A stretch of DNA of 64,000 bases, from contig JABCYQ010000001.1 in NCBI GenBank assembly GCA_013290125.1, forward strand, positions 124,001 through 188,000. The letters run 5' to 3'. Within the stretch, counting starts at the first letter, position 1, and the number at the start of each line of letters is the position of its first letter. This DNA is from Vulcanimicrobiota bacterium (GTDB lineage: Bacteria > Vulcanimicrobiota > Vulcanimicrobiia > Eremiobacterales > Eremiobacteraceae). The notes under the pieces are model-generated. The model did not search any database. It was not told the DNA's origin and saw only the letters and a list, made by a program, of their open reading frames with translations. This document shows, piece after piece, positions 42,564 through 44,288 of the stretch. A program made the position numbers and the translations under genes.

Positions 42564-42715
42564 CCAACCTCCGAGCGGCCGCTACCAGCCCCACGTACCG
42601 CGCTTCGGCCATAGGTGTCCCTAAACACGAAAGACGTCACATCTCGACCGGAATGTGGCCGTGCGCGTCGCTTTGGGACGACATTGGCGACAGCTCACGC
42701 GGGTATAAGAAGGCT

Positions 42716-42901
42716 ATGAAGAACGCAAATCGTTGTAGTTGCCACGGTTGCAGATCGGGTACGCACAGCGTCGATCCGCACGCTAGTTTCGAGCCGTGCG
42801 TCGCTCGATTCTCTGAGGTCTTGTTTCGAATCGGCCACGGAATCTGTCCGCCTTGTCTCGCTGCCAAACGCGATCAGGCCCCGATCGTCGTGATGGCGTG
42901 A
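42716..42901 (+). CDS. small Cys-rich protein (61 aa)
   Basis: Short frame with seven cysteines grouped as CSCHGC (residues 7-12), FEPC and CPPC (about 44-47), plus several His, suggesting a zinc or other metal site. AAGG lies close before the ATG. Its TGA overlaps the GTG of the next gene (GTGA), which supports real translation of both. No family recognised. Confidence 0.45.
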   Translation: MKNANRCSCHGCRSGTHSVDPHASFEPCVARFSEVLFRIGHGICPPCLAAKRDQAPIVVMA

Positions 42902-43242
42902 GATGCTCGGGATGCGATCAGATGAATCTGAATCACGCCTTAGGCGATGGCCGCGTGTATTGCGGAGCATGTGATAAGGCGAAACTGATGCGAGCGGCAT
43001 GCGCCCAGCGAGCAACGCCCGTGATGTCCAGAGATTCGCGACCCACCTGCGAAACGTGCCGGGCGGCAGGGCCGCTAGTCCACCGTCACGGTCGACGGAT
43101 CTGTATCAATTGCGCTGACCGATTTGCCCCGCAGACAGGCGGCCTGTCCTCGCCCTTGGACCACGGTTCGCCTGTCGAACGGCAACGGGAACATCGGCAG
43201 CAACCCTATGGAATTCTATTTCGTAAGGCAGCCACGACCTGA
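42898..43242 (+). CDS. double zinc-ribbon-like small protein (114 aa)
   Basis: Two similar modules: CSGCDQMNLNHALGDGRVYCGAC, residues 3-25, and CETCRAAGPLVHRHGRRICINC, residues 51-72. Each has a CxxC pair, a spacer of about 15-17 and a second CxxC, as in zinc ribbons. A low-complexity basic tail follows. GTG start overlaps the stop of the upstream Cys-rich gene. Its stop is directly adjacent to the stop of the opposite-strand metallothionein-like gene. Function unknown; RNA or metal handling are both possible. Confidence 0.5.
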   Translation: MRCSGCDQMNLNHALGDGRVYCGACDKAKLMRAACAQRATPVMSRDSRPTCETCRAAGPLVHRHGRRICINCADRFAPQTGGLSSPLDHGSPVERQREHRQQPYGILFRKAATT

Positions 43243-43383
43243 CTACGCGCAGGCGGGGTGCCCACACTCGCATTTATGTTCTTGTGCGTGCTCGGTGTGC
43301 TTCGCACAATGTCCGCTGCAGAACCGGCCCGATGTCGCCATGCATTTGCAGTGCTCGTGCTCGCATTTCTTTGGGTCAGCCAT
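43243..43383 (-). CDS. bacterial metallothionein-like protein (46 aa)
   Basis: A 46-residue frame with eight Cys and seven His. The order matches bacterial metallothioneins of the SmtA/BmtA type: CEHEHCKC near the N terminus, FCSGHCAKH in the middle and CECGHPAC at the C terminus. In SmtA the same elements (CxxCxC, YCSxxC, GCGHxxCxC) hold a four-zinc cluster. GGAG lies 8 bases before the ATG at 43383. Too short to be found by length-filtered gene calling. Likely sequesters Zn, Cd or Cu. Confidence 0.85.
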   Translation of the reverse strand: MADPKKCEHEHCKCMATSGRFCSGHCAKHTEHAQEHKCECGHPACA

Positions 43384-43493
43384 GTGGTCTTCTCCATCCG
43401 AACTAGCAAGGAATTGGAGTTGCTTCTGCAGCGGCCTAACTGTTTCCCCGACGCATCGCTAGTCGTTGATGCTAGTTGCTCTCAAGCCCGCGA

Positions 43494-44093
43494 TCAGCGC
43501 AACGGCCAATCCTTGAAGTCGTCGGCGTGACCTACGATGACTTCCACTGGACGATCCACGCCTGAACCGATGAACGCGGTCGCGCGCGCGTGGCCTTCGA
43601 CGATCACATACGAATCATCCACAGAAGCGGCGATGAGTCTGGCAAACGTTGTGCCGCTCTCGAACTTTCGGCGGACGTCCAGTATCGCCGCAACCGGAAC
43701 CTTGAGGCTGAGCGCGCGGTCCCTAACGTTTTCGATCTCCAAAGCACCTTCGCTGACAAGCCGATCTTGATCGACTAGGGTCGACCACGGCGGCACCTTT
43801 GCGTACCTGAACGAGCCGACTTCGGCCAGCGTGAATCTGCAAAGAGTCCACGCGACTTTGCGCGGAAATCCGCTGAACTGCGACGATCGGGTGGCGTACC
43901 CTCGGTAGGAGAGCATACCGAGCCGGGCGGCGTTATGTTCGGCGTTCTTCAGGTCGGGGTGGTCGACCAACTCGGCGCGCGTGTACCCGGTTGGGATCTT
44001 GCAGCGGTCGCGATAGATCGGCGATTGGAGTTCGGCTTTCACGAACTCGAGGATCATCTCGTCTTCGGACGATGGACGGACCAATTCCGGCAT
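43494..44093 (-). CDS. hypothetical protein with ParB/Srx-like segment
   Basis: About 199 residues from ATG 44093; a TTG at 44156 would add 21. The segment RLIAASVDDSYVIVEGHARATAFIGSG resembles the substrate loop of ParB/sulfiredoxin-like nuclease domains (xIxEGHHRxxA), where a nucleotide is bound. The N-terminal half (ELVDHPDLKNAEHNAARLGMLSYRGY) is not recognised. I therefore assign no function. No strong ribosome site. Confidence 0.55.
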   Translation of the reverse strand: MPELVRPSSEDEMILEFVKAELQSPIYRDRCKIPTGYTRAELVDHPDLKNAEHNAARLGMLSYRGYATRSSQFSGFPRKVAWTLCRFTLAEVGSFRYAKVPPWSTLVDQDRLVSEGALEIENVRDRALSLKVPVAAILDVRRKFESGTTFARLIAASVDDSYVIVEGHARATAFIGSGVDRPVEVIVGHADDFKDWPLR

Positions 44094-44288
44094 GTCTGGT
44101 GATTGGCCGCATATCGTCGATTTCGCCTTCCATGCGCTTACAACTACGGAGTTCAACAGTTACAGGTCGCGCGAGCTTTGCTACGGTAGCGTAAGCTGGG
44201 TTTGTTCTTGCCCTCAAAACTAGCCCGCGAATCAGAGGAGGGCCCATCGGCGCCTCCTCGAGCTCTAGCTGGTACGGCAGGTTGGTGC

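Follow-up and report, generated by a model that had tools for sequence, protein, structure and literature searches.

The 64,000-nucleotide stretch of DNA analysed here (the window) carries on its minus strand, at 43243-43383, a real and conserved gene for a 46-residue protein with eight cysteines and seven histidines. By profile comparison, the gene is a divergent bacterial metallothionein that is homologous to the Pfam family PF02069 while failing several of the features that define it. The proteins to which it belongs are most aptly seen as a sister subfamily of the bacterial metallothioneins that has not been catalogued. The gene, its ribosome-binding region and its three blocks of candidate metal ligands lie as follows:

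43243-43383, minus strand: metallothionein-like gene, 46 aa; ATG at 43383-43381, TAG stop at 43245-43243
43384-43399, minus strand: ribosome-binding region, GGATGGAGAAGACCAC and then the ATG; GGAG at 43392-43395, 8 nt ahead of the start codon
43342-43365, minus strand: first ligand block, C7-x4-C12-x-C14, equivalent to SmtA C9, C14 and C16; invariant in the alignments
43306-43323, minus strand: second ligand block, F21-C22-S-x2-C26, equivalent to SmtA C32 and C36; starts the predicted helix 24-32
43249-43272, minus strand: third ligand block, C38-x-C40-G-H42-x2-C45, in which C40, H42 and C45 are equivalent to SmtA C47, H49 and C52

The 46-codon open reading frame (43243-43383, minus strand, stop included) translates as MADPKKCEHEHCKCMATSGRFCSGHCAKHTEHAQEHKCECGHPACA. 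A preliminary description of this DNA had proposed a gene at this position, with the motifs CEHEHCKC, FCSGHCAKH and CECGHPAC and a good ribosome site. The reading frame is borne out, on the minus strand (the strand had been left unstated), all three motifs are found in its translation, and the GGAG stands 8 nt before the ATG. SD-like sites precede 58 of 99 homologues, compared with 14 in an upstream control interval. A six-frame translation of the window contains a single match to the Cys/His pattern of the protein, and 60 order-2 Markov windows contain none.

The closest homologue, which shares 78% protein identity, is found in another genus of the same taxonomic family (genome G006). DNA similarity between the window and G006 spans the metallothionein reading frame and nothing outside it. 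The two copies have no flanking genes in common, and because the flanks differ, the conserved unit is the reading frame itself. Differences between the two genes number 7, 7 and 16 at the first, second and third codon positions, so third-position changes dominate, and dN was lower than dS by three methods, for what is a short sequence. One may ask whether this is instead a chance reading frame antisense to another gene, as it is overlapped on the plus strand by a frame (43258-43530) that stays open for 90 aa, and spurious calls are common among short reading frames. However, the protein is conserved in dozens of genomes with every ligand invariant, and the DNA similarity stops at the ends of the reading frame and shows the third-position bias. 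A chance origin, to which we assign almost no probability, was therefore rejected as refuted by conservation.

To delimit the family, we used both single-sequence and profile searches. With the single sequence, 36 of 148 related genomes yielded a homologue, and a profile of 24 sequences found the family in 92 of 149 genomes of the phylum, 90 of them in the window's class. In this class (Eremiobacterota/WPS-2, sampled as 117 genomes) the family is thus carried by 90 of about 117 genomes, about three quarters, with 1-7 copies each; the genome of the window has a single copy. Where named records of close relatives stated a phylum, it was always Eremiobacterota (WPS-2, Vulcanimicrobiota), with the exception of one false hit, a Mesorhizobium match (L113) that we rejected because its frame is unrelated. 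The family set that we extracted comprises 107 distinct proteins of 39-71 aa, and 106 of them fit the signature C-x4-C-x-C-(7-18)-C-x3-C-(8-14)-C-x-C-x-H-x2-C. The Cys/His spacing of the gene is thus conserved in more than 100 homologues, as the preliminary description would lead one to expect. A Gly directly precedes the signature His in 103 of the 106 proteins, and exactly 8 Cys are present in 101 family proteins. The number of His varies, with a median of two and a maximum of seven, reached by the window copy and its G006 homologue.

One of 299 sampled Pseudomonadota genomes (G362) carries the family, and within the order of G362 it is present in 10 of 150 genomes with an identical signature. 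These copies suggest either transfer or a wider ancestral range. The copies of G362 (L182, L183) and of its relatives in the order (L184-L194) are metallothioneins of the CxCGHxxC type, and a G362 copy on contig C9 lies near a KGG stress gene. Plasmids searched for the family yielded a single match (E 0.6), too weak to convince, and viral contigs yielded none.

The preliminary description had anticipated an HMM match to the bacterial metallothionein family. This was not obtained: the 46-aa protein matched no Pfam or NCBIfam model, PF02069 included. At the Pfam gathering cut-off of PF02069 (33 bits), 0 of the 117 class genomes passed, and NCBIfam gave no relevant match, though about three quarters of them carry the gene. 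A profile built from the family set would recover the class members together with the relatives in other phyla. Below the cut-off, PF02069 matched 11 of 42 family members weakly (E up to 0.1, best 3.6e-6), and individual relatives gave E 2.7e-5 and 6.3e-5. When the family profile was compared with the PDB, the best four hits were SmtA (1jjd) and the Pseudomonas metallothioneins 6gv7, 6gv6 and 6grv. We also aligned it by hhalign with a canonical metallothionein profile of eight sequences (SmtA and seven from Pseudomonadota genomes), and obtained a probability of 96% and a score of 43.9. The best of 60 column-permuted controls scored 17.4 and the reversed control 13.8. The score is far above these controls and reflects homology, not merely a common richness in Cys.

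The metallothionein-like gene is therefore genuine, with homology of the SmtA type by profile, but its Cys/His order is not the one reproduced from SmtA/BmtA that had been proposed. That order is partly kept: of the nine Cys of SmtA the protein lacks two, and it has gained one Cys of its own. In a joint alignment, SmtA C9, C14, C16, C32, C36, C47 and C52 are retained in the family, as is H49. The position of SmtA C11, the second Cys of CxCxxCxC, is a Cys in 0 of 116 homologues and is mostly His (His9 in the 46-aa protein). The N-terminal C-x-C-x2-C-x-C of PF02069, in which this second Cys is invariant in the canonical set, is thus absent; the [YF]-C-x3-C block is present as FCSGHC, with both Cys invariant. 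At the position of SmtA His40, four residues past C36, the protein has Thr30, with His29 one residue earlier; the His at this spacing is invariant in the canonical set and not conserved in the family. Instead of the C-terminal C-x-C of PF02069, the protein ends with CxCGHxxC and lacks SmtA C54, and C38, two residues before CGHxxC, is an extra Cys without an SmtA counterpart. In all, three ligands that are invariant in canonical metallothioneins (C11, His40 and C54) are absent from the family. The predicted ligand set is a distinct one, of 8 Cys and one conserved His.

Site A of SmtA, which we take to consist of C9, C14, C32 and C36, keeps all of its Cys in the family, and we therefore infer a two-part change in which the tight zinc-finger site stays intact while the more labile cluster is rebuilt. 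The zinc-finger fold of SmtA forms once site A is filled, and site A is the last to be emptied by EDTA (PMC10612145). The SmtA core is reported as Zn4Cys9His2 (PMC10119931). The rebuilt cluster would have fewer sulphurs, and the protein would probably hold two to three zinc ions. The natural loss of C11, His40 and C54, together with the new Cys, offers a ready-made test of which ligands serve the zinc finger and which serve the labile cluster sites.

Among known systems, SmtA/BmtA (PF02069; 1jjd) resembles the family in size, in the elements C-x4-C-x-C, [YF]CSxxC and CGHxxC, and as the source of the best PDB profile hits. The family differs from it in the three lost ligands, the Cys added before CGH, shorter linkers, scores below the Pfam cut-off and the lack of an adjacent SmtB-type repressor. 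The Pseudomonas metallothioneins (PflQ2 MT; 6gv6, 6gv7 and 6grv) have homologous fold-forming Cys blocks, are His-rich, and likewise have no metalloregulator at the locus; a stationary-phase role has been described for them (PMC7387436). They differ in that they keep CxCxxCxC and have a core reported as Zn3Cys9His (PMC7387436), compared with only 8 Cys here.

An AlphaFold2 model computed with 42 homologues (pLDDT 83) contains a helix at residues 24-32 that begins in the CSxxC block. Foldseek with this model returned no significant hit and did not return SmtA; because the model is that of a 46-residue metal-dependent protein, this outcome is uninformative both ways. The weak best Foldseek hit was an FCS zinc finger (E 3.5, TM about 0.5), and the weak best VIA hits had Z of 2.2-2.5. 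The FCS zinc finger and PNUTS-TOX4 were the best hits of Foldseek/VIA, all of them insignificant.

We searched around 106 family loci for a metal-responsive regulator, in most cases over 1.5 kb to either side, and found no ArsR/SmtB-type reading frame, whereas positive controls were detected. At annotated plasmid loci of canonical metallothioneins, an SmtB/ArsR-type repressor adjoins the gene in 2 of 2 cases. The genome of the window has ten matches to ArsR/SmtB-type regulators, none of them on the contig of the metallothionein. Because the Pseudomonas metallothioneins are also without an SmtB/ArsR repressor (PMC7387436), such a repressor is not a defining feature of PF02069 as a whole. Searches for sigma-70 promoters and Rfam elements at the metallothionein locus returned nothing.

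A GGGTAY element is present upstream of 39 of 107 family copies in sense orientation, compared with 5 in antisense, and 18 of these 39 elements begin 15 or 16 nt ahead of the start codon. The same element is found ahead of KGG stress genes at some loci and ahead of a 61-aa Cys-rich reading frame in the window; the window metallothionein gene has no GGGTAY element upstream. A SigB/F/G-type sigma factor scored over the model cut-off in 4 of 4 class genomes tested, and no consistent sigma-B-type -35 box was found ahead of the GGGTAY elements. With no -35 partner in evidence, we treat regulation by a general-stress sigma factor as a hypothesis. We propose only tentatively, as a possibility with the odds somewhat against it, that a separate Cys8His subfamily may be the standard metal store of the Eremiobacterota, replacing canonical metallothioneins class-wide under a GGGTAY general-stress (sigma-B/F-like) promoter and not a metal-sensing repressor.

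The metal binding, stoichiometry and physiological role of the family are what we infer from its sequences. We consider it likely that the gene encodes a divergent metallothionein whose most probable function would be zinc buffering or sequestration. The cytosolic 46-residue protein would fold around zinc, or possibly Cd or Cu, using eight cysteines and one conserved histidine, with extra histidines in the window copy. It would keep the high-affinity zinc-finger half of SmtA (C-x4-C-x-C and [YF]C-S-x2-C on a short helix), with the C-terminal half rewired to C-x-C-G-H-x2-C. Two to three zinc ions may be buffered or stored in this way, and toxic thiophilic metals sequestered. The gene is a trait of the Eremiobacteria as a class, has no SmtB-type repressor beside it, and is more likely to be expressed constitutively or under stress control than under a local metal sensor. 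Most Eremiobacterota are soil bacteria without cultured representatives, and we found no description of a metallothionein from them in the literature searched.

The main rival reading is that the protein is a small treble-clef or FCS-like zinc finger for contact with protein or nucleic acid, with a second structural zinc in CxCGHxxC. The four invariant Cys that resemble site A, the [FY]CS-x2-C motif, placed as in FCS/treble-clef fingers (FCS-x2-C) at the start of a helix, and the identity of the best structural hits fit this reading, and the lack of a metalloregulator next door means that a role in the metal response is not demanded. However, the structural similarity to these fingers is weak and not significant, they have no sequence-profile link to the family, and the profile homology is specifically to metallothioneins. 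Moreover, FCS/treble-clef fingers have four ligands, and the nine conserved here exceed the need of one finger. In the alignments neither a basic nor a hydrophobic binding surface is conserved, the non-ligand positions vary freely, and the loops range over 7-18 and 8-14 residues. We thus regard a purely structural finger as unlikely. Less probable still, and by a good way, is a small metallochaperone that passes zinc or copper to a client, or a thiol-based redox buffer that scavenges oxidants, in place of a metal store. Many family copies adjoin envelope-biogenesis genes; in the larger family f2, many occupy a conserved place, with an LptD-like/LptF-like cluster on one side and an Lnt-like gene on the other, and both orientations occur (these names come from sequence reading, not family matches). 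In some copies GGGTAY stands at -15, as it does before KGG stress genes, which suggests a stress context. However, the window copy has neither envelope-biogenesis neighbours nor GGGTAY, and because genomic context varies across the family, no fixed client is indicated.

Returning to the metallothionein locus, no metal-related genes were recognised around it. On one side the gene borders two Cys-rich reading frames:

42716-42901, plus strand: Cys-rich reading frame, 61 aa, with GGGTATAAG 15 nt before its ATG; outside the metallothionein unit
42898-43242, plus strand: Cys-rich reading frame, 114 aa; its GTG start overlaps the previous stop (GTGA) and its stop abuts the metallothionein stop

Because the two stops abut, the metallothionein gene and the 114-aa frame are convergent. 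The back-to-back arrangement with a Cys-rich pair that had been pointed out earlier is thus real in the sense that the genes meet tail to tail, but it is not conserved in relatives. Among 117 genomes the 114-aa frame has one match besides itself, a weak one (E 3.4e-4). An operon or a function common to the metallothionein and the pair was rejected, as the 114-aa frame is nearly without homologues and is absent beside the G006 copy. The overlapping pair (42716-43242, plus strand; 61 and 114 aa) is an orphan pair, and the 114-aa frame has a weak resemblance to zinc ribbons, below cut-offs. The GGGTAY element ahead of the pair (42701-42716, plus strand, 15-16 nt before the ATG), like those at the 18 family loci with this spacing, is in a near-leaderless promoter position and resembles a sigma-B -10 box. 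On the other side, a 220-aa reading frame (43494-44156, minus strand) lies 110 nt upstream of the metallothionein gene on the same strand and has no Pfam or NCBIfam match. Elsewhere in the family, copies of f1, which includes the window copy, are found on several contigs per genome. At f2 loci (L071, L103 and others), the placement between LptD-like and Lnt-like genes occurs in both orientations across genera, as if the gene had been inverted in place.
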